Assembly (NCBI GenBank): GCA_027488755.1
Contig: JAIYAZ010000086.1
Span: 1-34,232, forward strand
DNA: 34,232 bases
Direction: 5' to 3'
DNA from: Verrucomicrobiaceae bacterium
GTDB lineage: Bacteria; Verrucomicrobiota; Verrucomicrobiia; Chthoniobacterales; JAATET01
The position numbers and the translations under genes are program-made. Under the pieces are notes generated by a model, which searched no databases, was not told the DNA's origin, and saw only the letters and a program-made list of their open reading frames with translations. Positions 811-20,719 of the stretch are shown one piece after another; positions within the stretch are counted from its first letter, which is position 1, and each line of letters begins with the position of its first letter.

Positions 811-945
811 CGACCCGCGGACGCCCGAAATTTTCGATGGTAATTTCTCCCCACCCCGGCATCATCCGCCCACCGGCGGAGGCCCATTGCATCAGCTTTC
901 CGCGTTCCGTCGCATCCAACCCGGGCGATAAGACGAACTAATATA

Positions 946-959
946 TTGATTTCTCTCAA
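946..959. promoter_or_regulatory. FNR/FixK-like box before the caa3 oxidase operon
   Basis: The sequence TTGAT-TTCT-CTCAA matches nine of ten positions of the FNR-family consensus TTGAT-N4-ATCAA. It also fits the looser TTGA-N6-TCAA form. It lies 24 bases before the GTG of ctaC. A TAATAT at 939-944 could be a -10 element, which would put the box over the transcription start, a position expected for repression. I see no good -35. The rest of the 173-base gap (811-983) holds nothing else recognisable. The assignment rests on motif match and position only. Confidence 0.4.
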
Positions 960-983
960 CGCGCTCGATAACTCCCTGCCACA

Positions 984-2123
984 GTGATCCGAAGGCTGTT
1001 TTCTCCAACCCGTCCGAATTCCCGACCCGCGCTTTCGGGAAGTTTGCTCCGGTCGTCTTTTCCCCTCGCCCTCCTGGCGGCACTGCTCCCCGCGGGCATG
1101 CTCTCCGCCGCCGAGCCCGAGCGGAAATTCACGGACATGTTTTCCCCGCTCTCGGTGCCGGCCGAGATCATCCACGACTCCGCGATCGTCGTCTCGCTCA
1201 TCTGCCTGGCCATCTTCCTCGTGGTGGTCTTCATGCTCTGCTACGTCATCTTCAAGTTCCCCAGCAAGGGCCCCGAGGATGACAAAAAGGAGCCGCCGCA
1301 GATCTACGGCAGCTCCCAGATCGAGCTCGCCTGGACCGTCATCCCGATCCTCATCACCGTCGTCCTCATCCTCGTCACCGTCCGCACGATCATCGACATC
1401 CAGGACCGCGAAATGCCCGAGGACACCGTCCACGTCCGCATCATCGGCCACCAGTTCTGGTGGGAAATCCACTACCTCAAACCCGACGGCGTCGACGCCA
1501 ACGGCAAGACCAAATGGGTCACCGACTTCGTCACCGCGAACGAACTCCACATCCCCGTCAGCTCCCGCGAGAACCCCCGCCCCACCGCGCTCCAGCTCGA
1601 ATCCGCCGACGTCATCCACAGCTACTGGGTGCCCCAGCTCAACGGCAAAACCGACCTCATCCCGAACCACACGAACCGCATGTGGCTCGAGCCCCTCGCC
1701 ACCGGCACCTACTACGGCAACTGCGCCGAGTATTGCGGCACCCAGCACGCCAACATGCTCATTCGCGTGATGGTGCAGACGCAGGAGGAATTCGACAAAT
1801 GGGCCGCCAACCAGCGCAAAAAGCCCGTGGACAGCACCGACCCCATCGCCGTCGCCGGCCATGAGGTCTTCTACAAATACTCCTGCGTAAGCTGCCATCG
1901 CATCGACGGATCGCCCGAGCCCCTGGCCATCTTCGGCCCCGACCTCACCCACTTCGCCTCCCGCCGCTGGCTCGGCTCCGGCGTCGCGCTCAACAACACC
2001 GAAAACCTTCTCAGCTGGATGCGCGACCCGCACGTCCTCAAACCCGGCGTGCTCATGCCCAACATGCAGCTCTCCGAAACCGAGGTCGAGCAGGTCACCG
2101 CCTTCCTCCAAACGCTCAAGTAG
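984..2123 (+). CDS. ctaC: Cytochrome c oxidase subunit II with fused cytochrome c domain (caa3 type)
   Basis: This is the electron-entry subunit of a heme-copper oxidase, anchored in the inner membrane with its CuA and heme c domains outside. The 379 residues show an N-terminal signal sequence ending near LSAAEPE, two membrane helices (about 68-92 and 110-135), then the CuA cupredoxin domain. Its ligands are visible: H212 (VIHSYWVP), C247, C251 and H255 (CAEYCGTQH), with M258. A class I cytochrome c domain follows, with CVSCH at 301-305. The start is GTG at 984. No ATG gives a full signal peptide, and later ATGs at 1099 and 1138 would remove it. There is no clear Shine-Dalgarno. It is the first gene of the operon, and ctaD begins 9 bases after its stop. 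The fused heme c shows that the enzyme takes electrons from cytochrome c-like donors encoded downstream. Confidence 0.96.
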   Translation: MIRRLFSPTRPNSRPALSGSLLRSSFPLALLAALLPAGMLSAAEPERKFTDMFSPLSVPAEIIHDSAIVVSLICLAIFLVVVFMLCYVIFKFPSKGPEDDKKEPPQIYGSSQIELAWTVIPILITVVLILVTVRTIIDIQDREMPEDTVHVRIIGHQFWWEIHYLKPDGVDANGKTKWVTDFVTANELHIPVSSRENPRPTALQLESADVIHSYWVPQLNGKTDLIPNHTNRMWLEPLATGTYYGNCAEYCGTQHANMLIRVMVQTQEEFDKWAANQRKKPVDSTDPIAVAGHEVFYKYSCVSCHRIDGSPEPLAIFGPDLTHFASRRWLGSGVALNNTENLLSWMRDPHVLKPGVLMPNMQLSETEVEQVTAFLQTLK

Positions 2124-2132
2124 TCAACCACC

Positions 2133-3833
2133 ATGGCTCACGGCACCACCACCGCACCCTCCGAGGATTTCGTCATCACGCCCGTTCGCCCCGGCGAAGA
2201 AAAGGGCACCTGGTCGTCCTGGATTCAGGACCTCTTCTTTACGGTCGACCATAAAAAGCTCGGCCTCATGTATATCGCCGTCGGGCTGTTCTTCTTCGTG
2301 ATCGCCGGCCTCATGGCCGCCGCCATCCGCATCCAGCTCGCCATCCCGAACAACGACTTCCTTCACCCCGACGTCTACAACCGCTTCTTCACGATGCACG
2401 GCACCGCGATGGTCTTCCTCGTGGGCATGCCGATCATCTTCGGGTTCGCCAACTACCTCGTGCCCATCATGATCGGCGCGCGCGACATGGCCTTCCCGCG
2501 CATGAACGCGTTCGGGTTCTGGATCACCTTCTTCAGCGGCATCCTGCTCTACATGAGCTATTTCACCGCCCCCAGCCTCTACAACGCCGGCAGCGCGCCC
2601 GACGTCGGCTGGTTCGCCTACTCCCCCCTCACCGCCAAGGCCTTCTCCACCGGCCACAGCACCGATTATTGGACGCTGAGCATCCTCATGGGCGGCATCG
2701 GTTCGGTCGCGACCTCGATCAACATCATCGTCACGACGATCTGCATGCGCTGCAAGGGCATGACCCTCGGCCGCATGCCGCTTTTCGTCTGGACCTGGCT
2801 CGTCGTCGCCTTCCTCGTCGTCATCGCCATCCCGCCGCTCTCCGCCTGCCAGATCATGCTCACGCTCGACCGGTATCTCGGCGCGACCTTCTTCGACACC
2901 CAGGCCGGCGGCTCCGCCATCCTCTGGCAGCACTTCTTCTGGATCTTCGGCCACCCCGAAGTCTACATCCTCATCCTCCCCGGCTTCGCCATCATGAACG
3001 AAGTCATCCCCGTCTTCTCGCGGAAGCCGATCTTCGGCTACCCGGTGATGGTCGGCGCGACGGTCATGATCGCCTTCATCTCCCTCGGCGTGTGGGCCCA
3101 CCACATGTTCACCGTTGGGATGACCTCGCTCGGCAACTCCTTCTTCGCGATCTCCACGATGCTCGTGGCCGTGCCCACCGGCATCAAACTCTTCAACTGG
3201 ATCGGCACCATGTATGGCGGCAAAATCCGCTTCGAGCTGCCGATGATGTTCTCCATCGGCTTCCTCTTCCAGTTCCTCATCGCCGGCCTCACCGGCGTGA
3301 TGCTCGCCGTCGCCCCGTTTGACTGGCAGCTGCACGACTCCTACTTTGTCGTCGCCCACTTCCACTACGTCCTCATCGGCGGCCTGCTCTACGCGATCTT
3401 CGCCGGCATCTACCACTGGTATCCGAAGGCCTTCGGTCGCCTGATGGATAAAAAACTCGGACTCTGGCACTTCTGGCTCTTCACCATCGGTTTCCACCTC
3501 ACCTTCTTCCCGCAGCACATCGCCGGCTTCTGGGGCATGCCCCGCCGCATCTACACCTACGAGGCCGGCCGCGGCTGGGAGGAAATGAACCTCATCTCCT
3601 CCGTCGGCGTCGTCTTCCAGGCCATCGGCATCCTCCTCTTCGTCGTCAACCTCCTCTACTCCCTCAAGAAGGGCAAAGTCGCTGGCGACGATCCGTGGGA
3701 TGCGTGGACCCTCGAATGGGCCACCACTTCGCCCCCGGCGGATTACAATTTCGAAAAGGAGCCCGTCGTGCGCAGCCGCCGCCCGCTCTGGGATCTCAAG
3801 CACCCGAAAGATCCGGACTGGAAATACGAATAG
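2133..3833 (+). CDS. ctaD: Cytochrome c oxidase subunit I
   Basis: Catalytic subunit that reduces oxygen to water and pumps protons. It is 566 residues with about 12 membrane helices, a normal length. Visible landmarks are the low-spin heme His in FTMHGTAMVF, HPEVY at 274-278 (CuB His, proton-gating Glu and the Tyr cross-link site), the CuB pair H323-H324 in WAHHMF, and HFHYV with heme ligands H409 and H411. The D-channel entrance pattern N-x10-D-x6-N is present in NYLVPIMIGARDMAFPRMN. These features place it in the A1 class of heme-copper oxidases. It sits between ctaC and ctaE in the usual order, with a 48-base gap to ctaE. The ATG at 2133 follows the ctaC stop by 9 bases. Confidence 0.98.
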   Translation: MAHGTTTAPSEDFVITPVRPGEEKGTWSSWIQDLFFTVDHKKLGLMYIAVGLFFFVIAGLMAAAIRIQLAIPNNDFLHPDVYNRFFTMHGTAMVFLVGMPIIFGFANYLVPIMIGARDMAFPRMNAFGFWITFFSGILLYMSYFTAPSLYNAGSAPDVGWFAYSPLTAKAFSTGHSTDYWTLSILMGGIGSVATSINIIVTTICMRCKGMTLGRMPLFVWTWLVVAFLVVIAIPPLSACQIMLTLDRYLGATFFDTQAGGSAILWQHFFWIFGHPEVYILILPGFAIMNEVIPVFSRKPIFGYPVMVGATVMIAFISLGVWAHHMFTVGMTSLGNSFFAISTMLVAVPTGIKLFNWIGTMYGGKIRFELPMMFSIGFLFQFLIAGLTGVMLAVAPFDWQLHDSYFVVAHFHYVLIGGLLYAIFAGIYHWYPKAFGRLMDKKLGLWHFWLFTIGFHLTFFPQHIAGFWGMPRRIYTYEAGRGWEEMNLISSVGVVFQAIGILLFVVNLLYSLKKGKVAGDDPWDAWTLEWATTSPPADYNFEKEPVVRSRRPLWDLKHPKDPDWKYE

Positions 3834-3881
3834 TCCGCCCACCCGCGATCCCGCTCCACCCACCGCCTTTAGCCACCACCC

Positions 3882-4490
3882 ATGGATAACGCCATCAACC
3901 AGACCCTTCCGGTCGAAGAAGAGACGCCCTGGCGCCTCCCGTCGATCCGCAAGGTCGCGATGATCTGTCTGATCACGACGGAAACCGCGCTCTTCACGAT
4001 CTTCGTCGTCGCCTACCTCTTCTACATCGGGAAGAGCCTCAACGGCCCCTACCCCTACGAGGTCCTCCACTTCCCCTGGTGGGCCAGCGCCGCCCTCTTC
4101 GGCAGCTCCGGCACGATCATGATCGCCGAGCACTACCTCAAAAAAGGCAAACACGGCCTCTTCAACCTCTGGTGGTTCATCACCATCGCCCTCGGCACCT
4201 ACTTCCTCGGCTTCACCGCCTACGAGTGGTATGTCCTCATCTACAAGGAAGGCCTCACCATCAGCACGAACGTGTTCGGTTCAACGTTCTATTCGCTCGT
4301 CGGCCTCCACGCCAGCCACGTCATCGTCGGCCTCTTCCTGCTCACGATCATCCTCATCTCCAGCTTCCGGAAAAAAATCGACCACGAGCACCACGAACAC
4401 GTCGAAATGATCTCCTGGTATTGGCACTTCGTCGACGCCATCTGGGTCGTCGTGCTCCTCGTCGTCTACGTCCTCAGCATGAACTACTGA
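3882..4490 (+). CDS. ctaE: Cytochrome c oxidase subunit III
   Basis: A 202-residue membrane protein with five predicted helices, the short bacterial form of subunit III. The family signature region YSLVGLHASHVIVGLFLL and the C-terminal WYWHFVDAIWVVV segment are both clear. Subunit III stabilises subunit I and supports sustained proton uptake and turnover. It follows ctaD after 48 bases and is 4 bases ahead of the next gene, consistent with one transcript. Nothing is unusual apart from the short, compact N-terminus. Confidence 0.96.
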   Translation: MDNAINQTLPVEEETPWRLPSIRKVAMICLITTETALFTIFVVAYLFYIGKSLNGPYPYEVLHFPWWASAALFGSSGTIMIAEHYLKKGKHGLFNLWWFITIALGTYFLGFTAYEWYVLIYKEGLTISTNVFGSTFYSLVGLHASHVIVGLFLLTIILISSFRKKIDHEHHEHVEMISWYWHFVDAIWVVVLLVVYVLSMNY

Positions 4491-4494
4491 TCGC

Positions 4495-5337
4495 ATGGCC
4501 CACGATCCGCACTCCCACTCCGACGAAAACTCCGTCGAGCTGCCCACGCCCACCGCCTGGCCGCTCATCACGGCCTTCGGCATCTTCCTGCTCTTCTTCG
4601 GCCTCGTGACCACCGTGGTCATCAGCCTGCTCGGCCTCCTCTGCGCCACGATCGGCGGCATCGGCTGGTTCAGCGACGTCTTCCCGCACCCCAAGCACGA
4701 GCCCTTCCCCATCCGCCCGAAGGATCAATGGCCACAGCCGATCTCCCCCGAGGGGCGCAGCGTCAGCCACCTCCACGTGGGCGAACACGGCCACCGCGAG
4801 CAATACCCCGCCGCCGCCCACCCCTACGCGGCCGGCTTCGTCGGCGGCATCCTCGGCGCCCTCGTCATGGCCGCCATCGCCTGCGCCTGGGGCGTGCTCG
4901 TGGACAAGAGCATCTGGTATCCCATCAACCTCCTCGCCGCCGTGGGCGTGCCCAGCCTCGCCGCCGCCGATGTCGAGACCCTCAAGGTCTTCAGCATGGT
5001 CGGCCTCGTGGTCGCCGTCATCACCCACTTCACGACCGCCGTCCTCGTCGGCCTCCTCTACACCGTCATCCTCCCGATGCTGCCCGCCAAGCGTGAGTGG
5101 ATCTGGGGCGGCATCATCATTCCGATCATCTGGACCGGCCTCATGTGGGCGACCCTCGGCCTCATCAGCCCCGCCATGAACGCCAAAATCGAGTGGCTAC
5201 CCTTCCTCCTCAGCCAGCTCGGCTTCGGCCTCGTCTGCGGCCTCTACGTCGCCCGCTCCGTCCGTATCTCCACCCAACGCACCTGGTCCGTCGCCGCCCG
5301 CCTCGGCGTGGAAGCCCAGCACCCCGGAGAGAAATGA
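4495..5337 (+). CDS. Cytochrome c oxidase subunit IV-like N-terminus joined to a multi-helix membrane domain
   Basis: 280 residues. The first 70 contain a His-rich leader (MAHDPHSHS) and a hydrophobic stretch PTAWPLITAFGIFLLFFGLV. This resembles the small subunit IV-like proteins found in bacterial oxidase operons. After a His-rich loop comes a second part (about 105-265) with four or five membrane helices, including a GFVGGILGALVMA segment, SIWYPINLLAA, and a conserved-looking WGGIIIPIIWTGLMWATLG stretch. I recall proteins like this second part next to cox genes in other bacteria, but I cannot assign a reaction. The gene lies 4 bases after ctaE, and its stop overlaps the next start (ATGA). 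A structural or assembly role in the oxidase or supercomplex is inference. Confidence 0.8.
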   Translation: MAHDPHSHSDENSVELPTPTAWPLITAFGIFLLFFGLVTTVVISLLGLLCATIGGIGWFSDVFPHPKHEPFPIRPKDQWPQPISPEGRSVSHLHVGEHGHREQYPAAAHPYAAGFVGGILGALVMAAIACAWGVLVDKSIWYPINLLAAVGVPSLAAADVETLKVFSMVGLVVAVITHFTTAVLVGLLYTVILPMLPAKREWIWGGIIIPIIWTGLMWATLGLISPAMNAKIEWLPFLLSQLGFGLVCGLYVARSVRISTQRTWSVAARLGVEAQHPGEK

Positions 5338-6044
5338 TCATGATCCGTCCCGCGTTTCTCGTCGCCTCCGCCGGCGTGGTTGCCAGCCTGGCCCTCACCG
5401 CCTGCGAGCCCCCCGGCAAGCCGCCCATCACCAAAAAGTGGAAGGCCCCCACGGAAGTCACCGACTTCACCAAGCTCTACTCGCAGAACTGCCTCGGTTG
5501 CCACAGCCTCGGGGAAACCTCGGGCCCCTCGCTTTCGATGGCCAACCCGATCTACCTCGCGTCGATCACCCGCGAAGACCTCGTCAACGTCATCGCCAAC
5601 GGCGTCCCCGGCTCCCGCATGCCGGCCTTCGCCGAGGTCAACGGCGGCAGCCTCACCGACGCCCAGATCGGCATCATCGCCGACGGCATCCTCGCCAAAC
5701 GCCAGCCCGTTGAGGGCCCCGTCCCCGCGTGGAGCGCCCCCCTCGGCAATCCCGCCGCCGGCCAGGCCGTCTACGCCGCCGTCGTTGAAAGCCTCAAAAA
5801 GACCCTGCCCGCCAGCGTCTTCCGCGACGGCTTCCTCACCAACCGCGACTTCCTCGGTCTCGTCACCGACCAATATCTCCGCAGCCTCGTCATCGGCGGC
5901 TCCGCGGAACTCGGCATCCCCAACTACCGCGAAGTCCTTCCCGGCCGCGCCCTCACCGACGCCGAGATCGCCGACCTCGTAGCCTATCTTTCCTCCCAGC
6001 GCCCGGCCGACTACGGGAAACCACCCACCAACAGCAATCCGTAA
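5334..6044 (+). CDS. Lipoprotein cytochrome c with one heme site and a degenerate second cytochrome domain
   Basis: 236 residues. The start is ATG at 5334, overlapping the previous stop as ATGA; a second in-frame ATG lies at 5340. The signal sequence ends in the lipobox LTAC with C24 as the lipidated residue, so the protein should be tethered to the outer face of the inner membrane. A single heme c site, CLGCH, occupies 53-57, with a possible Met ligand in SRMPAF. The second half (from about 137) begins GNPAAGQAVY and ends LTDAEIADLVAYLSSQRP. It has the outline of another cytochrome c domain but no CxxCH. Placed between oxidase and bc genes, it probably carries electrons from the cytochrome b/Rieske complex to the CuA/heme c subunit. 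Confidence 0.92.
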   Translation: MIMIRPAFLVASAGVVASLALTACEPPGKPPITKKWKAPTEVTDFTKLYSQNCLGCHSLGETSGPSLSMANPIYLASITREDLVNVIANGVPGSRMPAFAEVNGGSLTDAQIGIIADGILAKRQPVEGPVPAWSAPLGNPAAGQAVYAAVVESLKKTLPASVFRDGFLTNRDFLGLVTDQYLRSLVIGGSAELGIPNYREVLPGRALTDAEIADLVAYLSSQRPADYGKPPTNSNP

Positions 6045-6058
6045 ATTTTTTTGAGAAA

Positions 6059-6697
6059 ATGAGTTCCGACGCTCCCAACAAGGAAGCCTGCTCCCCCGCC
6101 AACGGCGGTTGCGGCTGCTCGGGCGGCACCCCCGCCTCCGGCGCCCTCCCCCCCGGCGTGGTCACCGTCGAGGCCCCCGCCCCCACCACCCGCCGCAACT
6201 TCCTCTTCCAGATCGGCATCGCGCTGAACCTTCTGGCCGGCGCCCTCATCAGCATCCCGCTCATCGGCTTCGTCCTCTCCACCTTCATCCAGAAGTTCCC
6301 GCTCCAGTGGATCTCCCTCGGCTCGCTTGAGAAATTCCCCGTCGGCCAGGTCCGCCTCGCCCAATATCTCAATCCCTACCGCCGCACCTGGGACGGTGAA
6401 ACCGCCCACATTCCCTGCTGGGTGCGCCGCATCGACGAAGCCGAATTCCAGGTCTTCGCCATCAACTGCACCCACCTCGGCTGCCCCGTCCGCTGGTTCG
6501 CGGAGTCGAAGCTCTTCATGTGCCCCTGCCACGGCGGTGCCTTCTACGAAAACGGCGACCACGCCGCCGGCCCGCCCCCGCGCGGCCTCTTCACCTACGA
6601 ATACCGTGTCCTCAACGGTAATCTCGAGATTAAGGGCGGCATCCTGCCCACCCTCGCGAACCCCGGAAACCCCACCGAAAAGGTCAAGGAAGCCTAA
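6059..6697 (+). CDS. Rieske [2Fe-2S] iron-sulfur protein of a bc-type complex
   Basis: 212 residues. The N-terminus is Cys/Gly-rich and cytoplasmic. A TTRRNFLFQIG segment then leads into one membrane helix (about 46-72), as in Tat-exported Rieske proteins. The cluster-binding boxes are intact: C137-T-H139-L-G-C142 and C155-P-C157-H158, giving two Cys and two His ligands and the usual C142-C157 disulfide. The protein takes the first electron from menaquinol or ubiquinol and passes it to cytochrome c. Its TAA is followed directly by the ATG of the cytochrome b gene, so translation is probably coupled. The extra Cys in the leader (C11, C18, C20) are unusual and their use is unknown. Confidence 0.96.
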   Translation: MSSDAPNKEACSPANGGCGCSGGTPASGALPPGVVTVEAPAPTTRRNFLFQIGIALNLLAGALISIPLIGFVLSTFIQKFPLQWISLGSLEKFPVGQVRLAQYLNPYRRTWDGETAHIPCWVRRIDEAEFQVFAINCTHLGCPVRWFAESKLFMCPCHGGAFYENGDHAAGPPPRGLFTYEYRVLNGNLEIKGGILPTLANPGNPTEKVKEA

Positions 6698-8230
6698 ATG
6701 ATCGCCAACGCGAAAAAGAAGCTCATCGACGCCGGCCTCGGCGTCTACGGCTGGATCGACGATCGTCTCCACGTCACGGAGATTTTCGAACACACCGCCG
6801 GTCACCACATCCCGAAGAGCACCAGCAGCTGGTTCTACGTCTTTGGCAGCGCCACCCTGCTCTGCCTCATCATCCAGCTCGTCACCGGCACGATGCTGGC
6901 CCTCACCTACGTCCCCTCCGGCGCCGAGGCCTACACGACGCTGGAATACATGACCTACGAGCAACCGCTCGGCTGGCTCATCCGCGCCATCCACTACTGG
7001 GGCTCGAACTTCATGGTCGCCATCATGATCCTGCACATCACGCAGGTTTACCTCTTCGGCGCCTACAAGTATCCCCGCGAGATCACCTGGATCTCCGGCG
7101 TGTTCCTCGGCCTCATCACCCTCGGCCTCGCCTTCACCGGCCAGGTCATGCGCTTCGACGAGGACGCCTACTGGGGCATCGGCATCGGCGCCTCCATCAC
7201 CGGCCGCTCGCCCGTCTTCGGCGCGGAGCTCGTCCAGATGCTCCTCGGCGGACCGATCATCAACTCCGACACCCTCTCGCGCTTCTTCGCGCTTCACGTG
7301 TTCGTGCTCCCCGGGGCCATCCTCGCCTTCATCGCCCTCCACCTCCGCATGGTGCTGCTGAAGGGCATCAACGAATGGCCCGAGCCCGGCGTCCTCGTCA
7401 ACCGCGAGACCTACGACAAACACTACGCCGCCATCATCCGCCGCGAAGGCATCCCCTTCACCCCGCACGGCATCGGCAAGGACCTCGTCGCCGGCGCCAT
7501 CGTCATCATCGCCATCCTCGGCTGCGCGCTCATCTTCGGCCCGAAAGGCCCGCTCGGCCCGCCGGACCCCACCGAAATCGCCGTCCACCCCCGCCCCGAC
7601 TGGGCCTTTATGTGGATCTTCGCCGTCGCCGCGCTCATGCCCGAATGGGCCGAGGTTCCTGCCTTCCTCATCGCGCCGCCCATCGTCATCGGCTTCCTCA
7701 TTCTTCTCCCGTTCATCAACAACACCGGCGAGAAGCACTGGAGCCGCCGCCCCGTGGCCGTGCTCTCCGTCTTCGCGATCTACCTCTCGCTCGGCATCCT
7801 CACCTGGTTCGGCATCACCGGCCCGTGGTCTCCGCCCATGCTGGCATGGAGCGGCGCCGTCACGCCCAAGGACTTCGTCGTCAACCGCACCCCGCTTGAG
7901 CTCCAGGGCCTCGTCGTCTTCCAGCAGAAGCAGTGTCGTAACTGCCACGCCATCGACGGCATCGGCGGCCATCGCGGCCCCGACCTCTGGAACGTCGGCG
8001 ATCGCATGACACATCCCCAGCTCGTCCGCCAGGTCATCCAGGGCGGCGGCAACATGCCCGCCTACGGCAAAAACCTCACCCCGCACGAAGTGGAAGCCGT
8101 CGTCCAATACATGGTCTCCCTCCGTCCCCCGGGCAACGTGCCGGCGCTCGATTCCGCCAAACCGGCCGAGCCGCCCGCTGAGAACCGCAAGCAGGCCGCC
8201 AAGGAGCCTGCTCACGGGGACCGTGGCTAG
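6698..8230 (+). CDS. Cytochrome b (b6 plus subunit IV) fused to a C-terminal cytochrome c domain
   Basis: 510 residues. The four-helix heme-binding part carries the two His pairs H99/H113 and H200/H215. The second pair has 14 residues between, as in cytochrome b6. The subunit IV-like part follows in the same chain, so the usual b6 + IV split is absent. The quinol-site motif normally written PEWY reads P-D-W-A at 300-303. A cytochrome c domain follows the last helices, with CRNCH at 413-417 and a likely Met ligand in GNMPAYG. The C-terminus is a charged, Pro/Ala-rich tail. With the Rieske protein it forms a quinol:cytochrome c oxidoreductase in the inner membrane. Bacillus-type complexes carry a c domain on subunit IV; here the whole chain is a single protein. 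Confidence 0.95.
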   Translation: MIANAKKKLIDAGLGVYGWIDDRLHVTEIFEHTAGHHIPKSTSSWFYVFGSATLLCLIIQLVTGTMLALTYVPSGAEAYTTLEYMTYEQPLGWLIRAIHYWGSNFMVAIMILHITQVYLFGAYKYPREITWISGVFLGLITLGLAFTGQVMRFDEDAYWGIGIGASITGRSPVFGAELVQMLLGGPIINSDTLSRFFALHVFVLPGAILAFIALHLRMVLLKGINEWPEPGVLVNRETYDKHYAAIIRREGIPFTPHGIGKDLVAGAIVIIAILGCALIFGPKGPLGPPDPTEIAVHPRPDWAFMWIFAVAALMPEWAEVPAFLIAPPIVIGFLILLPFINNTGEKHWSRRPVAVLSVFAIYLSLGILTWFGITGPWSPPMLAWSGAVTPKDFVVNRTPLELQGLVVFQQKQCRNCHAIDGIGGHRGPDLWNVGDRMTHPQLVRQVIQGGGNMPAYGKNLTPHEVEAVVQYMVSLRPPGNVPALDSAKPAEPPAENRKQAAKEPAHGDRG

Positions 8231-12751: not shown

Positions 12752-14284
12752 GTGCCCGCCGTGGATGCCGAGATTCTTGCCCGGGTGCAGTTCGCCTTTA
12801 CCGTGATGTTTCATTACATCTACCCGCCCCTCTCCATCGGGCTGGGCATCGCCCTCGTGCTCATGGAGGGCATCTGGCTGAAAACCGGAAACATCCTCTT
12901 CCACAACATGGCGCGCTTCTGGACGCGCATCTTCGCCCTCACCTTCGCCATCGGCGTTGCCACGGGCATCGTGATGGAATTCGAATTCGGCACCAACTGG
13001 GCCACCTACTCCCGCTTCGTCGGCGACATCTTCGGCAGCGCCCTCGCCGCGGAGGGCATCTTCGCCTTCTTCCTCGAAAGCGGCTTCCTCGCCGTGCTCC
13101 TCTTCGGCTGGAACAAGGTCGGGCCGCGCGTGCACTTCTTTTCGACCTGCATGGTCGCGCTCGGCGCGCACTTCAGCGCGGTGTGGATCGTCGTGGCGAA
13201 TTCCTGGATGCAGACGCCCGCCGGATACCACCTCGAGCGCATGGTGGATGGCAAACCCGTGCGCCTCCCGCTCGACCACGCCGTCACCCCCGCCGACCTC
13301 GGCTCGGTGCGCGCGGTCGTCGACGACTTCTGGGCCATGGTGCTCAATCCATCGACCATCGACCGCCTCACCCACGTCGTCCTCGGCGCGTGGTTGGCCG
13401 GCGCGTTTCTCGTCGTCAGCATCAGCGCCTTCTACCTTCTGCGCCGCCGCCACGAGGAATTCGCCCGCGCCTCGCTCAAGGTCGGCCTCGGCTTCGCCAT
13501 CGTCGCCACCCTCCTCCAAATGGTCAGCGGCGACCTCACCGCCGTCGGCGTCTCCCGCAACCAACCCGTGAAGCTCGCCGCCATGGAGGGCCTCTGGGAC
13601 ACCCAACCCTACGCCCCCCTCACCCTCGCGGGCTGGGTGGACGCGAAAGCCGAACAAACCCACGGCCCCGCCATCCCCGGCCTGCTCAGCTTCCTCACCT
13701 GGCACGACGCCGCGAAACCCGTCGCCGGCCTGCGCCAGCTCCCGCCCGACGACTTCCTCCGCCGTTTTCACCCCGAGGCCACCACGCCCGAGCAGCTCGC
13801 CACCGTCCGCCGCAACTACTGGCCAAACGTCCCCGCCGTCTTCCAGTTCTACCACCTCATGATCACCGTCGGCGTGCTCCTCCTTGGGCTCGTCCTCGTA
13901 TCGGCCTTCTTCTGGTGGCGCGGCTGGCTCTGGCGCACCGATTGGAGGCCCACCCGCCTCCTGCTGGGCGCGCTCGTGCTCTCCGTGCTCGGCCCGCAGA
14001 TCGCCAACCAGGCCGGCTGGTTCGCCGCGGAAATGGGCCGCCAGCCCTGGATCGTCTGGGAGCTCCTCAAAACCTCGCAGGCCCTCTCCAAGGTCGTCAC
14101 CGCCCACCAGATCCTCGCCTCCATGCTCATGTTCACCGCCGTCTACGCGCTGCTCTTCGTGATGTTCATCTTCCTGCTCACCCGCAAAATCCAGCACGGC
14201 CCCGACACCGAGGAGGAATCCGAGGAACTCCCCGACAGCTGGAAAGCCATCCTCCGCCTCGACGACCAATCCTCCCGCGCCTAG
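12752..14284 (+). CDS. cydA: Cytochrome bd-type quinol oxidase subunit I
   Basis: 510 residues from the GTG at 12752 (a GTG at 12761 is also possible; no in-frame ATG fits). The protein oxidises quinol and reduces oxygen with hemes b558, b595 and d, without pumping protons. Visible are the heme ligand H21 in HYIYPPLSIG, a second His in LTHVVLGAWLAGAF, a Met in FYHLMITVG, and the diagnostic GRQPW in AAEMGRQPWIVW. The Q-loop is short, as in the cyanide-insensitive-like branch, and there is no long Q-loop insertion. It is cotranscribed with cydB (39-base gap made of CCCATCT-type words). The upstream palindrome suggests control by oxygen or redox state. Confidence 0.97.
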   Translation: MPAVDAEILARVQFAFTVMFHYIYPPLSIGLGIALVLMEGIWLKTGNILFHNMARFWTRIFALTFAIGVATGIVMEFEFGTNWATYSRFVGDIFGSALAAEGIFAFFLESGFLAVLLFGWNKVGPRVHFFSTCMVALGAHFSAVWIVVANSWMQTPAGYHLERMVDGKPVRLPLDHAVTPADLGSVRAVVDDFWAMVLNPSTIDRLTHVVLGAWLAGAFLVVSISAFYLLRRRHEEFARASLKVGLGFAIVATLLQMVSGDLTAVGVSRNQPVKLAAMEGLWDTQPYAPLTLAGWVDAKAEQTHGPAIPGLLSFLTWHDAAKPVAGLRQLPPDDFLRRFHPEATTPEQLATVRRNYWPNVPAVFQFYHLMITVGVLLLGLVLVSAFFWWRGWLWRTDWRPTRLLLGALVLSVLGPQIANQAGWFAAEMGRQPWIVWELLKTSQALSKVVTAHQILASMLMFTAVYALLFVMFIFLLTRKIQHGPDTEEESEELPDSWKAILRLDDQSSRA

Positions 14285-14323
14285 CCCCCCCCATCTCCCA
14301 TCTTCCAACTCCCATCTCCCACC

Positions 14324-15340
14324 ATGGATCTCAACCTCATCTGGTTCGTTCTCGTCGGTGTGCTGCTCACCGGCTACGCCGTGCTCGACGGCTTTGATCT
14401 CGGCGTGGGCATTCTTCAACCCTTCGTGCGCAAGGATGAACACCGCCGGCTGTTCCTCAATGCCATCGGCCCGGTGTGGGACGGCAACGAAGTCTGGCTC
14501 GTCACCGGCGGCGGCGCGCTCTTCGCCGCCTTCCCCGAGGCCTACGCCACCGTCTTCTCCGGCTTCTACCTGCCCTTCATGCTCCTGCTCTGCGCGCTCA
14601 TCTTCCGCGCCGTCGCCATCGAATTCCGCAGCAAGGAACCCTGGCCCTGGTGGCGCGCCATGTGGGACTGGGCCTTCTGCCTCGGCAGCTTCGTCTCCGC
14701 CCTGCTCATCGGCGTCGCCATGGGCAACATCGTCCGCGGCATCCCGCTCGACGCCCACCACGAATTCGCCGGCACCCTCCTAGGCCTGCTCAACCCCTAC
14801 GCCCTCCTCATGGGCATCACCGTCGTCCTCCTCTTCGCCATGCACGGCGCCATCTACCTCGTCATGAAAACCGAGGGCGAACTCCACGACCTCGTCCGCG
14901 GCTGGGTGCCCCGCCTCATTGGCCTCTTCCTCGCCGCTTACATCCTCTTCAATTTCTACACCCTCATCGACCTCCCCCACATCTACGTCACCGTGCGCAC
15001 CCGGCCGTGGATCCTCCTCGTCATCGCCGCCGCCGTCCTCACCATCCTCAACATCCCGCGCGAATTCTCCAAGGGCCGCGACTTCGCCGCCTTCGCCTCC
15101 TCCTGCGCCGGCATGGCCCTCATGATGGCCGCCTTCGGCCTCACCTATTTTCCGAACATGGTGCTCTCCAGCCCCGCCCCGGAAAACAGCCTCACCATCT
15201 GGAACGCCGCCTCCTCCCCGAAAACCCTCGGCATCATGCTCATCATCGCCGTCATCGGCGTCCCCCTCGTGCTCACCTACACGGCCTGCATCTACTACAT
15301 CTTCCGCGGCAAAACCACGCTCACCAAGCACAGCTACTAG
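14324..15340 (+). CDS. cydB: Cytochrome bd-type quinol oxidase subunit II
   Basis: 338 residues with eight or nine predicted helices. The family start is clear: MDLNLIWFVLVGVLLTGYAVLDGFDLGVG, followed by the GPVWDGNEVWLV motif and FPEAYATVFSGFYLPF. CydB stabilises the heme-carrying subunit and contributes to proton access. It is the second gene of a two-gene operon and is followed 29 bases later by an intrinsic terminator. I see no small CydX-like gene downstream. Alternative assignment is unlikely. Confidence 0.97.
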   Translation: MDLNLIWFVLVGVLLTGYAVLDGFDLGVGILQPFVRKDEHRRLFLNAIGPVWDGNEVWLVTGGGALFAAFPEAYATVFSGFYLPFMLLLCALIFRAVAIEFRSKEPWPWWRAMWDWAFCLGSFVSALLIGVAMGNIVRGIPLDAHHEFAGTLLGLLNPYALLMGITVVLLFAMHGAIYLVMKTEGELHDLVRGWVPRLIGLFLAAYILFNFYTLIDLPHIYVTVRTRPWILLVIAAAVLTILNIPREFSKGRDFAAFASSCAGMALMMAAFGLTYFPNMVLSSPAPENSLTIWNAASSPKTLGIMLIIAVIGVPLVLTYTACIYYIFRGKTTLTKHSY

Positions 15341-15369
15341 CCGCCCGCGCCCAACGCCCCGCCCCCACC

Positions 15370-15402
15370 GCCCCGGAGATTTCCCTCCGGGGCTTTTTCT
15401 TT
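15370..15402 (+). terminator. Intrinsic terminator after cydAB
   Basis: GCCCCGGAG (15370-15378) pairs perfectly with CTCCGGGGC (15385-15393) around a six-base loop. TTTTTCTTT follows. The stem, loop and U-tract are all standard, so cydAB transcription should end here. It isolates cydAB from the next operon. Confidence 0.9.
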
Positions 15403-15438
15403 CCCCTTTGCGCCAAAACCCCCGCCCCGCGCGGTGAC

Positions 15439-15453
15439 TGGCACGTGCGTTGC
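15439..15453 (+). promoter_or_regulatory. Sigma-54 (RpoN) promoter of the ABC importer operon
   Basis: TGGCACG-TGCG-TTGC matches the -24/-12 consensus TGGCACG-N4-TTGC at every defined position. The GG lies at 15440-15441 and the GC at 15452-15453, at the required spacing. The expected transcription start is near 15465, about 38 bases before the ATG of the binding-protein gene. RpoN promoters need an activator ATPase of the NtrC type, and none is encoded in this window. The position after a terminator and before a nitrogen-type transporter supports a real promoter. Confidence 0.82.
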
Positions 15454-15460
15454 TTAATAA

Positions 15461-15488
15461 GTATTACGAGTTCACAAACTCGTAATAC
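15461..15488. promoter_or_regulatory. 28-bp palindrome, copy 1 of the GTATTA-N16-TAATAC dyad
   Basis: GTATTACGAGTT (15461-15472) is the exact reverse complement of AACTCGTAATAC (15477-15488), with a four-base centre. It overlaps the predicted sigma-54 start site (about -4 to +24) and ends 14 bases before the start codon. The outer GTATTA/TAATAC arms and their 16-base spacing recur before the glutamine synthetase-like gene at 18550-18577. The position suits a repressor operator or a leader hairpin. Confidence 0.75.
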
Positions 15489-15502
15489 CCAACACTCGCC
15501 TC

Positions 15503-16486
15503 ATGAAACTCACCCATCGCATGAAATTCCTCGCCGCCCCCGTTGCGGCCCTCGCGAGCGCGCTCCTGCCGATCCAGGCGGCCGAGCCGCTCAAAATCGG
15601 TTACTCCGACTGGCCCGGCTGGGTCGCCTGGGAGGTCGCCGTCCAAAAAGGCTGGTTCAAGGAAGCCGGCGTCGACGTCGAGTTCGAATGGTTCGAATAC
15701 GTCCCGTCCATGGAAGCCTTCGCCGCCGGCAAACTCGACGCCGTCTGCATGACCAATGGCGACGCCCTCGTCACCGGAGCCACCGGCGCCCCGAGCAAAA
15801 CCATCATCCTCAACGACTACTCCAACGGCAACGACATGATCGTCGCCAAGCCCGGCATCGAGTCCCTCAAGGACCTCAAGGGCAAAAAAATCGGCGTCGA
15901 AGTCGGCTTCGTCGACCACCTCCTCCTGCTCAAGGGCCTCGAGTCCGTCGGCATGAAGGAAAGCGACGTCGAACTCGTCAACGTCCCGACCAACGAAACC
16001 CCGAAGGCCCTCGCCTCCGGCGACGTGGACGCCATCGGCGCCTGGCAGCCCAGCTCCGGCCAGGCCCTCAAGGCCGTCCCCGGCTCCAAGGCCATCTATA
16101 CCAGCAAGGACGTTCCCGGCCTCATCTACGACGTGCTCGCGGTCAACCCCGCCAGCCTCTCCGCCCGCCCCGACGATTGGAAAAAGGTCGCCCAGGTCTG
16201 GTATAAGGTTGTCGATTACTTCAACGACCCGAAGACCCGCCCCGAAGCCATCAAGATCATGGCCGCCCGCGTAAACCTCAGCCCCGAGGAATACGCCAGC
16301 TTCGTCGAAGGCACCAAAATCCTCACCCTCGAAGAAGCCAAGGCCGCCTTCAAGGTCGGCCCCGGCCTCGACTCCGTCTTCGGCTCCAACAAGGTGGTCG
16401 ACGACTTCAATGTCGCCAACAAGGTCTACGAAAAGGCCCAGCCCACGGCGGATTACATCGACCCCGCCATCACCAACTCGCTCTAA
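15503..16486 (+). CDS. ABC importer periplasmic substrate-binding protein (NMT1/TauA/SsuA-like)
   Basis: 327 residues with a signal peptide that ends near LLPIQAAEP. The mature protein begins with [23 protein letters not shown], the usual opening of the SsuA/THI5/NMT1-type binding proteins. [24 protein letters not shown] and [17 protein letters not shown] follow. This family delivers nitrate, taurine, sulfonates, pyrimidine precursors or other small nitrogen/sulfur compounds to an inner-membrane permease. The substrate cannot be read from sequence. The neighbouring synthetase and the sigma-54 promoter point to a nitrogenous compound, by inference. It is the first gene of the operon and is followed by a stable hairpin that may protect its mRNA. 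Confidence 0.93.
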
Positions 16487-16575: not shown

Positions 16576-17583
16576 ATGGCCGAGCCCGCCGCCGCCGCTG
16601 CCGCCCCCACCCGTCGCCGGGTCTGGCTCAAACCGTTTTCCGACCAATCCGTCCCCGGCCAGGCTCTCTTCGTCTGGCTCTCCTTCCTCCTCCCGCTCGT
16701 CGTCTGGGCCGCCGTCAGCTACGTGCCCTTCCTCTGGCACCCGCTCGTTAAGATTCAGGACCCCGCCAGCGTCAGCTACTTCCGTCCCGACACCCTCGTC
16801 GAACGATCCGTTTTCCGCGCCGAAAACGCCAAACTCGCTGCCGCCGGCAAGCCCCTCGCCACCGGCACGCCCGCCAACCCCGTTTTCCTCCCCGCCCCCC
16901 ACGAAGTCGCCCAGGCCTTCCACAAAAGCTTCACCACCCCGCCCCGCCGCAAGGGCGAGAAATGGCTCCACGAAAGCCTCTGGCAGAGTATCCAGGTCAT
17001 CTTCTGGGGCTTCACCATCAGCTCGCTCATCGGCGTCCCCCTCGGCATCCTCTGCGGCACCTTCCAGCCCATCGCGAAGCTCACCGAGCCCTTCGTCGAC
17101 TTCACCCGCTACATGCCCGCCCCCGCCTTCGGCGCCCTCGCCGTCGCCGTGCTCGGCATCTACGACCCGCCCAAGATCGCCATCATCTTCCTCGGCACCT
17201 TCTTCCAGCAGGTGCTCGTGATCGCGAACACCACCCGCAAGCTCGATCCCGCCCTCATCGAGGCCGCGCAAACCCTCGGCGCCCGTCGCCCCCAGCTCCT
17301 CTTCCGCGTCATCGTCCCCGGCTGCGCCTTCGACCTCTACAACGACATGCGCATCCTCCTCGGCTGGGCCTGGACCTACCTCATCGTCGCGGAATACATC
17401 GGCGCCAGCTCCGGCATCACCTTCTTCATCAACCAGCAGGCCAAATACCGCATCTACGACAACGTCTTCGCCGCCATCATCATCATCGGCATCCTCGGCT
17501 TCACCACCGACCGCTTCCTCGCCTGGCTCGGCGTCCACCTCTTCCCCTGGAAACGCCGCCGCTCCTCCGCGCCCGCCACCTAA
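16576..17583 (+). CDS. ABC importer permease (TauC/SsuC-like)
   Basis: 335 residues. After an Ala/Arg-rich start there is a first helix (about 30-55, FVWLSFLLPLVVWAAVSYVPF), a periplasmic segment of some 60 residues, then the core BPD_transp_1 domain with five helices. The coupling motif EAAQTLGARRPQLLFRVIVPG contacts the ATPase. The long segment between the first helix and the core (about 55-130) is larger than in the usual TauC/SsuC proteins and seems to be periplasmic. It lies between the binding protein and the ATPase (21-base gap to the latter) and should form the membrane channel as a homodimer. Confidence 0.93.
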   Translation: MAEPAAAAAAPTRRRVWLKPFSDQSVPGQALFVWLSFLLPLVVWAAVSYVPFLWHPLVKIQDPASVSYFRPDTLVERSVFRAENAKLAAAGKPLATGTPANPVFLPAPHEVAQAFHKSFTTPPRRKGEKWLHESLWQSIQVIFWGFTISSLIGVPLGILCGTFQPIAKLTEPFVDFTRYMPAPAFGALAVAVLGIYDPPKIAIIFLGTFFQQVLVIANTTRKLDPALIEAAQTLGARRPQLLFRVIVPGCAFDLYNDMRILLGWAWTYLIVAEYIGASSGITFFINQQAKYRIYDNVFAAIIIIGILGFTTDRFLAWLGVHLFPWKRRRSSAPAT

Positions 17584-17604: not shown

Positions 17605-18504
17605 ATGACCACCGTCGCCCTGCCCGACTACCGCCAGCAATCGCCCGAGGTCGCCGCCCGCTTCCAACGCATCCGCGAACGCCCCGTCATCCTCCAGGTG
17701 CGCGACCTGGAAAAGGCCTACGGCGCCGGCCCCAGCCGCCACGTCGTCTTCGACCACGTCACCCTCGACATCCACCGCCGCGAATTCATCACCGTCATCG
17801 GACCATCCGGTTGCGGCAAATCCACCTTCGTCCGCATCGTCGCCGGCCTCGACGAAGCCACCTCCGGCCAGATCCTCCTCGACAACCACCCGGTGAGCGA
17901 ACCCGGACCCGACCGCGGCATGGTCTTCCAGGGCTATACGCTCTTCCCCTGGCTCACCGTCAAACGCAACGTCATGTTCGGCCTCGAAATGCGCGGCCGC
18001 GCCCGCTCCACCGCCGAAACCGAAGCCCGCCAATGGATCGATATGGTCGGGCTCGCGAAGTTTGAGAACTCCTACCCGCACGAGCTCTCCGGCGGCATGA
18101 AGCAGCGCGTCGCCATCGCCCGCGCCCTCGCCAACGAGCCCCGCATCCTCCTCATGGATGAACCTTTTGGTGCGCTTGATGCTCAGACCCGCTGGAAGAT
18201 GCAGAAGTATTTACTGCAAATCTGGAAAAAGGTCGACGTCACCATTCTCTTCATCACCCACGATCTGGACGAGGCCATTTTCCTCTCCGACCGCATCCTC
18301 GTCCTCGGCACCAACCCCGGCGGCGTCCGCGAGATCATCGAAAACCCCGTCCCCCGCCCCCGCACGCTTGAGCAGTTCCTCTCCCCCGAGTTCCTCGCGC
18401 TCAAGGCCCGCCTCGACCACCTCATCCACGGCGACGAACCGCCCGATGAGGAGGACAAACTCCCCCTCGGCCGCATGACCACGGCCGGCGACGACGCCGA
18501 ATAA
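17605..18504 (+). CDS. ABC importer ATPase (TauB/SsuB-like)
   Basis: 299 residues. The Walker A GPSGCGKST, Q-loop VFQGYTLFPWLTV, signature LSGGMKQRVAIARAL, Walker B RILLMDEPF and switch-His ITHDLDEA are all intact, so it should be an active ATPase. It belongs to the nitrate/sulfonate/taurine transporter class. There is an N-terminal extension of about 30 residues and a C-terminal acidic tail of about 40 residues (DEPPDEEDKLPLG). It is the last gene of the importer unit, and the synthetase begins 79 bases later behind its own copy of the shared dyad. Confidence 0.95.
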   Translation: MTTVALPDYRQQSPEVAARFQRIRERPVILQVRDLEKAYGAGPSRHVVFDHVTLDIHRREFITVIGPSGCGKSTFVRIVAGLDEATSGQILLDNHPVSEPGPDRGMVFQGYTLFPWLTVKRNVMFGLEMRGRARSTAETEARQWIDMVGLAKFENSYPHELSGGMKQRVAIARALANEPRILLMDEPFGALDAQTRWKMQKYLLQIWKKVDVTILFITHDLDEAIFLSDRILVLGTNPGGVREIIENPVPRPRTLEQFLSPEFLALKARLDHLIHGDEPPDEEDKLPLGRMTTAGDDAE

Positions 18505-18549: not shown

Positions 18550-18577
18550 GTATTAACAAAACCACATCCCGTAATAC
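18550..18577. promoter_or_regulatory. 28-bp GTATTA-N16-TAATAC dyad, copy 2
   Basis: GTATTA (18550-18555) and TAATAC (18572-18577) are inverted arms with exactly 16 bases between, as in copy 1 at 15461-15488. Both are followed by CCA. The inner 16 bases are not palindromic here, unlike copy 1, so only the outer arms are conserved. This is what one expects of a protein operator rather than a conserved RNA hairpin. The site ends 6 bases before the synthetase ATG. Confidence 0.72.
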
Positions 18578-18583
18578 CCACCC

Positions 18584-19945
18584 ATGAAATCTGACGCGGA
18601 AATCTTGCAACTCCAGACCGACCTCGCCGCCAAGGGCGTAAAATACTGCATCGGCGCCTACGTCGACCTGCACGGCGTGCCGAAGGGCAAGGTCGTCCCC
18701 CTCTCCCACTTCGCGCATTTCGCGCACGGGAGCGAACTTTACACCGGCTACGCCCTCGACGGCCTCGGCCAGAGCCCGAACGACGACGAAATCAGCTCCG
18801 TGCCCGACCTCGACCGCGGCTTCCCGCTGCCCTGGAACCCTGAGATCGCCTGGTTCCCCGCCGACAACGAATTCCACGGCCAGCCCTACGAGATCAACGC
18901 CCGCGTCGCCCTCAAAAAGCAGCTCGCCGAGGCCGCGAAGATGGGCTTTGCGTTCAACCTCGGCATCGAGTGCGAGGTCTTCGTCGTGCGTCAGACGCCC
19001 GACGGCCGCCTGGAAATCCCGAACCCCGACGACGACCTCGTCAAATCCTGCTACGACGTCAAACGCTTCCTCGACCGCTACCCCTGGCTCGACAAGGTCG
19101 CCACCGCCATCGACACCCTCGGCTGGGAGCTCTACTCCTTTGACCACGAGGACGCGAACTCACAGTTCGAATTCGACTTCAAATACGCCGACGGCCTCAC
19201 CATGTGCGACCGCTACACGTTCTTCCGCTTCATGGCGAAGCACTACGCCGCCGAGGAGGGCCTGCTCGCCACGTTCATGCCTAAGCCGTTTGCGGACAAA
19301 ACCGGCACCGGCGCGCACTTCAACATGTCCCTCGCCGACGCGAAAACCGGCGCGAACCTCTTCGCCCGTGACCCGCAGGACGACCCCCGCGGCCTCGGCC
19401 TCACCGACCTCGGCTACCAGTTCATCGCCGGGATCCTCCGCCACGGCCCCGCCCTCTGCGCCACCTTCGCCCCCACCGTGAACAGCTACAAGCGCCTCGT
19501 CCGCCGCGGCCTCATGGCCTACTACTCCTGGGCCCCCGTCTTCAACAGCTACGGCCGCAACAACCGCACGAACTCCGTCCGCGTCCCCATGGGCGGCGGC
19601 CGCGTGGAATCCCGCAACGCCGACGGCTCCTGCAACCCCTACCTCGCCGCCACCCTCGCCCTCGCCGCCGGCCTCGAGGGCATCCGCGAAGGCCTCGACC
19701 CCGGCGCCAGCAACGAGGAAAACCTCTACGAATTCACCCCCCCGCAACTCGCCGAACGCGGCATCCAGGAACTGCCCCGCACCCTCGCCGAGGCCGTGGA
19801 CGCCTTTGCCGCCGATTCCTTCGTCGAACGCGTGCTCGGCCCCGAGCTTCGCCAGGAGTTCATCACCTACAAAGCCGAGGAATGGCGCCAATACCACCAG
19901 TCCATCAGCCAGTGGGAGATCGACCGCTACGCCCGGCTCTATTGA
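18584..19945 (+). CDS. glnT: Glutamine synthetase-family enzyme, GlnT type (glutamine or gamma-glutamyl-amide synthetase)
   Basis: 453 residues of the GS-I fold. The GlnT-like opening reads [18 protein letters not shown], then [15 protein letters not shown]. Metal and substrate motifs are visible: [41 protein letters not shown], the NSYKRL loop and [10 protein letters not shown]. The family joins glutamate to ammonia or to an amine such as methylamine with ATP, making glutamine or a gamma-glutamylamide. GlnT/GmaS-type proteins lack the adenylylation control known from GlnA. It has its own dyad-type operator and follows the importer, so it probably assimilates what the importer brings in. Which amine or ammonia source it uses cannot be read here. 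The regulator gene begins 54 bases after the stop. Confidence 0.9.
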
Positions 19946-19999: not shown

Positions 20000-20719
20000 A
20001 TGCCCACCCTCGTCGAACGCCTCGCCTCCTCGCTCTCCGGCCTCCACCGCTCGGGGGTGACCGAACGCACCCTCTACGCCGAAATCCTCCGCCAAACCCT
20101 CGCGGCCAACGACGATTACTACTGCGTCTGGACGGTCTGGGAGCCCGATGCCCTTGACGCCCGCGACGCCGAGCACCGCGACAAACCCCACCACGACGCC
20201 ACCGGCCGCTTCGTCACTTCCTGGCACCGCGCCGGCCGCCAGATCACCCGCCACTCCGTCGAAGACTACGACCGCCCCGGCCGTGACGACTGGTATCACG
20301 TGCCGCGCAAAACCGGGGAACTCTGCGTCATGGAGGCCGGCGTCGTCCGCATCGGCGGTCAGGACGTCCGCGTCAGCCGCGAAATCGCGCCCATCCTCCT
20401 CGCCGGCCGCGTGCTCGGCGTCGTCGGCACCGACCGACTCGCCCCGCCCGCGAATCCCCCCGTGCCCCTCCGCCGCGCGCCGCTCTCGGTCCGCCCCATC
20501 GCCGCGACCAACGGCTCCGCCGGCCTCCAGCGCCTCACCCGGCGCGAACGCGAGGTCCACTACTGGATCTGCCAGGGCAAGTCGAACGACGACATCTCCC
20601 GCATCCTCGAGGTCAGCCCACACACGATCAAAAACCACGTCGACCACATCTTCCAAAAGCTCGGCGTGGAAAACCGCTACGCCGCCGCCCTGCTCCACCC
20701 GAGCCGCGCCGCCGCGTAG
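20000..20719 (+). CDS. Soluble LuxR-type one-component regulator with a chemoreceptor-like PDC/Cache sensor domain
   Basis: 239 residues with no signal peptide or membrane helix. The N-terminal part (about 20-150) resembles the PDC/Cache ligand-binding segment of methyl-accepting chemotaxis proteins. It has LYAEILRQTLAAND, VWTVWEPDALDARD, HDATGRFVTSW, a DDWYHVPRKTGE strand and VGTDRL. In chemoreceptors this domain is normally outside the cell; here it appears to be cytoplasmic. The C-terminus (about 173-228) is a GerE/LuxR helix-turn-helix: LTRREREVHYWICQGKSNDDISRILEVSPHTIKNHV. It follows the synthetase with a 54-base gap and is probably cotranscribed or nearby-controlled. By inference it senses an imported or assimilated small molecule and acts on the dyads at 15461 and 18550. 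Binding is not shown. Confidence 0.85.
   Translation: MPTLVERLASSLSGLHRSGVTERTLYAEILRQTLAANDDYYCVWTVWEPDALDARDAEHRDKPHHDATGRFVTSWHRAGRQITRHSVEDYDRPGRDDWYHVPRKTGELCVMEAGVVRIGGQDVRVSREIAPILLAGRVLGVVGTDRLAPPANPPVPLRRAPLSVRPIAATNGSAGLQRLTRREREVHYWICQGKSNDDISRILEVSPHTIKNHVDHIFQKLGVENRYAAALLHPSRAAA

Follow-up and report, generated by a model that had tools for sequence, protein, structure and literature searches.

What controls the ABC importer operon that follows a sigma-54-type promoter in a Verrucomicrobiaceae genome, and what does this importer carry? The first-pass annotation had reported an exact sigma-54 element between a terminator and a nitrate/taurine-type importer with a GlnT-like synthetase, and had held that this promoter identifies the nitrogen-scavenging role of the operon better than the protein families do. 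Our best overall explanation, to which we give a probability of roughly 0.6, would be a guanidine-type importer under dual control by sigma-54 and a nickel-blind regulator of the NikR family. The whole analysis is based on sequences, for the most part from genomes assembled out of metagenomes. The window, i.e. the complete analysed stretch of 34,232 nucleotides, and a further contig of the same genome (G000:C9) contain the following features.

15371..15398, plus strand: terminator-like hairpin and T run closing cydAB, read directly as CCCCGGAG-ATTTCC-CTCCGGGG-CTTTTT
15439..15453, plus strand: sigma-54 promoter element (-24 GG / -12 GC); exact consensus, orthologue conservation, genomic RpoN
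15461..15488, no strand: NikR-type operator GTATTACG-N12-CGTAATAC with perfect 12-bp arms; 46 copies in related loci, 0 in shuffles
15503..16486, plus strand: substrate-binding protein, NMT1/SsuA type (Pfam NMT1, 76.6 bits)
16576..17583, plus strand: ABC permease (Pfam BPD_transp_1)
17605..18504, plus strand: ABC ATPase (Pfam ABC_tran)
18550..18577, no strand: second NikR-type operator with 2 mismatches, 6 nt before the GlnT start codon (pattern search)
18584..19945, plus strand: type III glutamine-synthetase-like ligase, GlnT (TIGR03105, 606 bits; cut-off 469.6)
20000..20719, plus strand: LuxR-family (GerE) regulator (Pfam GerE, 63.9 bits)
G000:C9:8092-8550: nikR-like gene, the sole NikR homologue in the window's genome

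The sigma-54 promoter

The element TGGCACG-TGCG-TTGC (TGGCACGTGCGTTGC) matches 11 of 11 consensus bases and has its GG and GC dinucleotides 10 nt apart, as in TGGCAC-N5-TTGC. The reported terminator is present as well, with its hairpin at 15371-15392 followed by the T run; the genes in front of it encode subunits I and II of a cytochrome bd oxidase (12752-15340, cydA/cydB by Pfam) and are unrelated to the operon. The exact match is the only one in the 3.48-Mb genome (reversed control: 0), but a single exact match is weak evidence on its own, since shuffled windows contain approximately 0.017 exact matches each, so that chance alone would give a genome of this size one or two. Matches with 2 mismatches occur in the window at chance level (12 versus 13.3 expected).

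The promoter is taken as real because the motif is conserved before orthologous operons, which is the check that the first-pass annotation had itself proposed. We compared 81 upstream regions, namely that of the window and those of 80 relatives belonging to Verrucomicrobiota, Gamma-, Beta- and Alphaproteobacteria and others; as these loci were found through a search with the substrate-binding protein, counts over the 81 loci describe the importer's group. In 66 of the 81, TGGYRY-N6-TGC is found no more than 300 bp upstream, whereas the reverse strand gives 5 and shuffles give 0.9 (maximum 3); the motif is kept also in loci without a NikR-type operator. The genome encodes a full-length RpoN (PF04552, E 4.6e-60) with a glutamine-rich N-terminus and an intact RpoN box ARRTVAKYRE. 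The site at 15439-15453 is thus almost certainly a genuine sigma-54 promoter, and with the usual 12-nt spacing from the -12 element, transcription is predicted to start near 15465. Upstream of the promoter, an NtrC-like GCAC-N7-GTGC is found in 15 of the 80 relatives, with 0.2 expected; the window has no clear site of this kind, only a match with 2 mismatches.

A putative operator at the predicted transcription start

While the sigma-54 element of the control region stands, the first-pass annotation had overlooked the NikR-type operators over the start point and before GlnT. At 15461-15488, GTATTACGAGTT-CACA-AACTCGTAATAC forms a perfect 12-bp inverted repeat that occurs once in the genome, begins 7 bases past the sigma-54 element and spans about -5 to +24 of the predicted transcript. 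Most relatives have an operator at the equivalent promoter position, with the outer part GTATTACG-N12-CGTAATAC in common and with sequence and spacing conserved across phyla; in 40 of the 49 loci with a measurable distance, it starts 7 or 8 nt past the sigma-54 element. With up to 2 mismatches allowed, the related loci (923 kb in total) contain 46 copies of the pattern, all of them at pathway promoters, and shuffled and reversed sequence contains 0. Of these copies, 43 precede an importer (including L003 and L047, which have over-extended gene calls and were assigned by the same promoter position), 2 precede UAAP genes and 1 precedes the window's GlnT. Across 47 sites, the 7-bp arms are nearly invariant, the interior is variable, and positions 8 and 21 are mostly C and C and therefore unpaired, which favours a protein site over an RNA hairpin.

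Which protein might bind there? The window's genome has three good copies of the operator, before the importer, before GlnT (with a counterpart in G003) and before nikR, and in the window's genome and three others of the same genus a GG-N10-GC element lies 8 nt upstream of the copy before nikR, too. Of the 39 loci that contain a nikR-like gene, 38 have the operator before the importer; of the 42 that lack this gene in the stretch examined, 14 have it (p 2.7e-10). As the site tracks the nikR-like gene and precedes nikR itself, it very probably belongs to the NikR-like protein, and the LuxR-family protein of the operon was rejected as owner of the palindrome for the same reasons. That LuxR-family regulator (cluster 42), possibly with a cache-like N-terminal sensor, is also encoded in the guanidine-pathway loci L004 and L005, and in L181. 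In three Akkermansia-labelled assemblies (L050, L065, L081), GTGTGAA-N14-TTCAYAC is found at the same distance past the sigma-54 element, which suggests a diverged operator of the same kind.

The NikR-like regulator and its lost nickel ligands

A canonical NikR gene (G246, L135/L195) is likewise preceded by a GTATTAC-type site, and the site alone thus cannot separate nickel-blind from nickel-sensing members; the ligand residues and the gene neighbours do. The protein encoded at G000:C9:8092-8550 is clearly of NikR type, as it reaches 117.5 bits with NF003381 (cut-off 105), matches Pfam NikR_C and RHH_1, and scores 112 bits against P. horikoshii NikR (PDB 2bj1). The nickel ligands of E. coli NikR are His76, His87, His89 and Cys95 (PMC7055735), and the alignment to P. 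horikoshii NikR gives R/H/Q/R at these positions in the window's genome. In 43 locus-associated and same-genus proteins, Cys95 occurs in none and the full quartet in none; Arg/Ser/Ser of the N-terminal strand is invariant across the same 43.

A survey of 388 Verrucomicrobiota genomes, in which 70 NikR homologues were read in context, was made through the regulator and hence is independent of the importer-based set of 81 loci. All 33 homologues with an intact HHHC quartet have no importer, UAAP or carboxylase neighbours, whereas 36 of the 37 with a broken quartet have guanidine-pathway neighbours (p 3.4e-19); the one without them (L194) is a partial match. Similarity ranking puts the degenerate homologues first, but the neighbour test ignores rank. 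In the next strand, [R/K]G has become QG, and this replacement separates the two groups in almost the same way. The change at Glu30 of the potassium site was discarded as a diagnostic, since intact homologues of the phylum also carry Gln there. Because the nickel ligands are lost, the regulator should not answer to nickel, and judging from these residues it is quite likely nickel-blind. Binding of another metal is conceivable for some members, in which three histidines are retained (HHHT, HHHY). As nickel-blind proteins of this kind pass the current annotation models for nickel regulators, their annotation calls for caution.

The guanidine pathway and the substrate of the importer

UAAP1 and UAAP2 are carboxyguanidine deiminases, and ABC importers of such loci have been described for guanidine (PMC12186494, PMC9800807, PMC11410670). 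In Verrucomicrobiota, the regulator gene directly heads UAAP1-UAAP2-carboxylase. This is also the case in G000:C9, where the operator precedes nikR and UAAP1/UAAP2 (CgdAB) and the urea/guanidine carboxylase stand under the same operator type; an allophanate hydrolase follows the carboxylase in G002 and G003, and in the window's genome the contig breaks off within the carboxylase gene.

Riboswitches point in the same direction. In 12 orthologous importers, the leader contains a guanidine-I riboswitch, mostly behind a sigma-54-type element, and neither an operator nor a nikR-like gene was found in these 12 loci. The importers concerned are proteobacterial and form two groups nested within the operator-bearing part of the importer tree, which indicates that one control replaced the other at orthologous operons. 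Seven further loci (L014, L030, L044, L054, L056, L057, L076) combine an importer behind the operator with a divergent UAAP/carboxylase operon behind a guanidine-I riboswitch, and in several of them a guanidine-II riboswitch lies further inside the divergent operon. In the window itself, an Rfam scan of the importer leader gave nothing near threshold; no guanidine riboswitch was found at 15200-15700 or in G000:C9. A search of reduced sensitivity through the window's genome and the phylum sample gave no guanidine-I riboswitch either. L056, a Verrucomicrobiaceae assembly, does carry one.

The first-pass label of a nitrate/taurine importer finds no support in this genomic company, as the orthologues carry guanidine-I riboswitches or adjoin urea/guanidine carboxylase and UAAP1/UAAP2 genes, and it is these riboswitches and neighbours, rather than the promoter alone, that point to the role of the operon. 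The binding protein stays below the cut-offs of TIGR03427 (165 versus 333.9 bits), of the taurine family (53 versus 304 bits) and of the SsuA subfamily TIGR01728 (161.7 versus 163.5 bits). Its genomic relatives argue for a guanidino compound as the probable substrate. That the operon pairs a nitrogen-scavenging importer with a type III synthetase is supported; the solved structure nearest to GlnT is that of glutamate-methylamine ligase (PDB 9qur, E 2.6e-114).

Several neighbouring genes may belong to the same metabolism. A creatininase-family hydrolase and a type III glutamine-synthetase-like ligase stand directly behind the importer in L017, L043, L049, L051, L055 and L072 and in about 30 operator-bearing loci, also in operons with a guanidine-I riboswitch; the window has its GlnT at 18584-19945. 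The two enzymes may represent a second, so far undescribed way of using guanidino nitrogen, and none of the papers searched joins guanidine riboswitches with creatininase. A fatty-acid-desaturase-like protein and a xylose-isomerase-like TIM-barrel protein form another conserved pair, which lies just behind a guanidine-II riboswitch in L017 (11108-12079), L043, L018 and L021, occurs also in L013, L015 and L067, and possibly carries out an oxidative step on substituted guanidines. Upstream of nikR, positions 1-8024 of G000:C9 (L108) encode a creatininase, a second GlnT-like ligase, a second NMT1-type binding protein, a Rieske oxygenase, an EgtB/sulfatase-modifying-factor-like protein and a TIM-barrel protein; these genes may be another cluster for guanidino compounds.

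A model for dual control

Positions 15439-15488 would form a composite promoter that receives two inputs. At 15439-15453, RNA polymerase would bind with sigma-54, and when nitrogen is limiting, an activator (probably of NtrC type) would trigger opening; the regulator encoded at G000:C9:8092-8550 would bind the 28-bp operator over the start point and thereby block initiation. As the operator covers the transcription start, we consider repression more plausible than activation. The regulator would most likely be controlled by guanidine or a closely related pathway compound, with an even chance that the ligand is free guanidine, and its regulon, as marked by the operator sites, comprises the importer, GlnT and nikR-UAAP-carboxylase. 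Judging from its orthologues, the importer would supply guanidine or a related guanidino compound to the route of carboxylase, UAAP1-UAAP2 and allophanate hydrolase. In the nested proteobacterial orthologues, a guanidine-I riboswitch stands in the operator's place. The broadest version of this idea, a widespread nickel-blind NikR branch that senses guanidine, replaces the guanidine-I riboswitch at sigma-54 promoters of uptake and degradation operons and is the first known guanidine-binding transcription factor, comes out at slightly less than an even chance.

What alternatives exist for a guanidine-responsive NikR relative? The strongest would be a regulator that is nickel-blind but reads a different ligand of the pathway, such as methylguanidine or another imported guanidino compound, carboxyguanidine, allophanate, urea or a metabolite of nitrogen status. 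In the seven loci where the pathway is split into divergent operons, one with the riboswitch and one with the operator, two signals seem to be read; two guanidine sensors would be partly redundant there, which favours a different but related ligand, and operator-controlled importers often stand with creatininase-family and GlnT genes instead of a carboxylase, so that a precursor may be the substrate. Nevertheless, operator and guanidine-I riboswitch substitute for each other at orthologous importers, and in Verrucomicrobiota the regulator directly heads the deiminase and carboxylase genes, and we regard a different ligand as rather unlikely. The other alternatives appear weaker still. Ordinary nickel control, in which nickel-NikR would repress a nickel-independent nitrogen route and leave the task to nickel enzymes when nickel is available, would agree with the family membership and the operator architecture; guanidinase and urease are nickel enzymes (PMC12186494), and control of a nickel-independent isozyme by NikR has been proposed for a hydrogenase (PMC545781). 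However, all members linked to the pathway have lost the quartet and those without this link still have it, apart from the partial L194, and the only NikR of the window's genome reads R/H/Q/R. A urease was sought in this genome and is absent, and a nickel logic via urease was rejected for this reason and for the missing ligands, which makes nickel control improbable altogether.

That the importer transports nitrate, taurine or another sulfonate is suggested by its Pfam and PDB matches, all of which are binding proteins for such compounds, but these matches are remote (best PDB E 1.5e-8) and below the NCBIfam cut-offs, and orthologues with 63-83% identity lie among guanidine-pathway genes and guanidine riboswitches, so this substrate range seems very improbable. 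Nitrogen control by sigma-54 alone, with an incidental palindrome, would explain why the promoter is conserved in operator-less loci too. It is hardly credible in view of an operator that is conserved in sequence and spacing across phyla, lacks any counterpart in shuffles and is associated with nikR-like genes. A function of the inverted repeat as an RNA hairpin at the 5' end of the transcript has an equally negligible probability: the window copy can fold (-8.4 kcal/mol, z -3.5), yet it is the sequence of the arms rather than pairing that is conserved, and the site precedes nikR and GlnT as well. The hairpin was therefore rejected, and the preferred reading remains a protein operator of the nickel-blind NikR relative.

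Comparison with known systems

According to a review of 2025, no guanidine-binding regulatory protein is known. The NikR relative described here may be the first protein found to regulate genes according to guanidine, and the locus offers for such regulation a specific candidate, an exact DNA site and a clear signature of nickel loss. If true, a former metal sensor now reads a different ligand, and orthologous promoters have exchanged an RNA switch and a protein switch for one another. No literature linking NikR to guanidine, urea carboxylase or RpoN was found in a search that covered few subscription papers, and a search for guanidine together with "nickel-responsive" gave nothing relevant. 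What is new is a variant of the known NikR family joined to a known promoter class.

Known NikR operators have the sequences GTATGA-N16-TCATAC in E. coli (PMC7055735) and GTGTTAC-N13/14-GTAACAC in deltaproteobacteria (PMC545781). Like these systems, the present one combines a ribbon-helix-helix domain and a NikR C-terminal fold, recognizable by sequence, with a 27-28 bp inverted-repeat site that also precedes the regulator's own gene. Unlike them, it has lost the nickel ligands, targets genes of a guanidine-type importer and a carboxylase, and has its site on a sigma-54 start. It thus resembles a NikR-operator system in its working but falls outside the nickel-sensing group, as the nickel site that defines this group is absent. 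In comparison with NtrC-sigma-54 promoters, the GG-N10-GC core, the genomic RpoN and the NtrC-like sites in 15 of 80 relatives are shared, whereas the start in the window is overlapped by a NikR-type operator and has no clear enhancer site. The family TIGR03427, "putative urea ABC transporter substrate-binding protein", which is found beside urea carboxylase, has the broad family and the genomic company in common with the window's binding protein, which nevertheless scores below the cut-off and falls on a separate branch. The closest functional counterparts are the carboxylase operons with guanidine-I/II riboswitches of Vreelandella, Raoultella and Pseudomonas (PMC12186494, PMC12508155), which likewise comprise an ABC importer, UAAP1/UAAP2 (CgdAB), carboxylase and allophanate hydrolase, and orthologues of the window's importer carry such riboswitches; in contrast to them, the genome group of the window has a DNA site and a protein in the RNA switch's stead.
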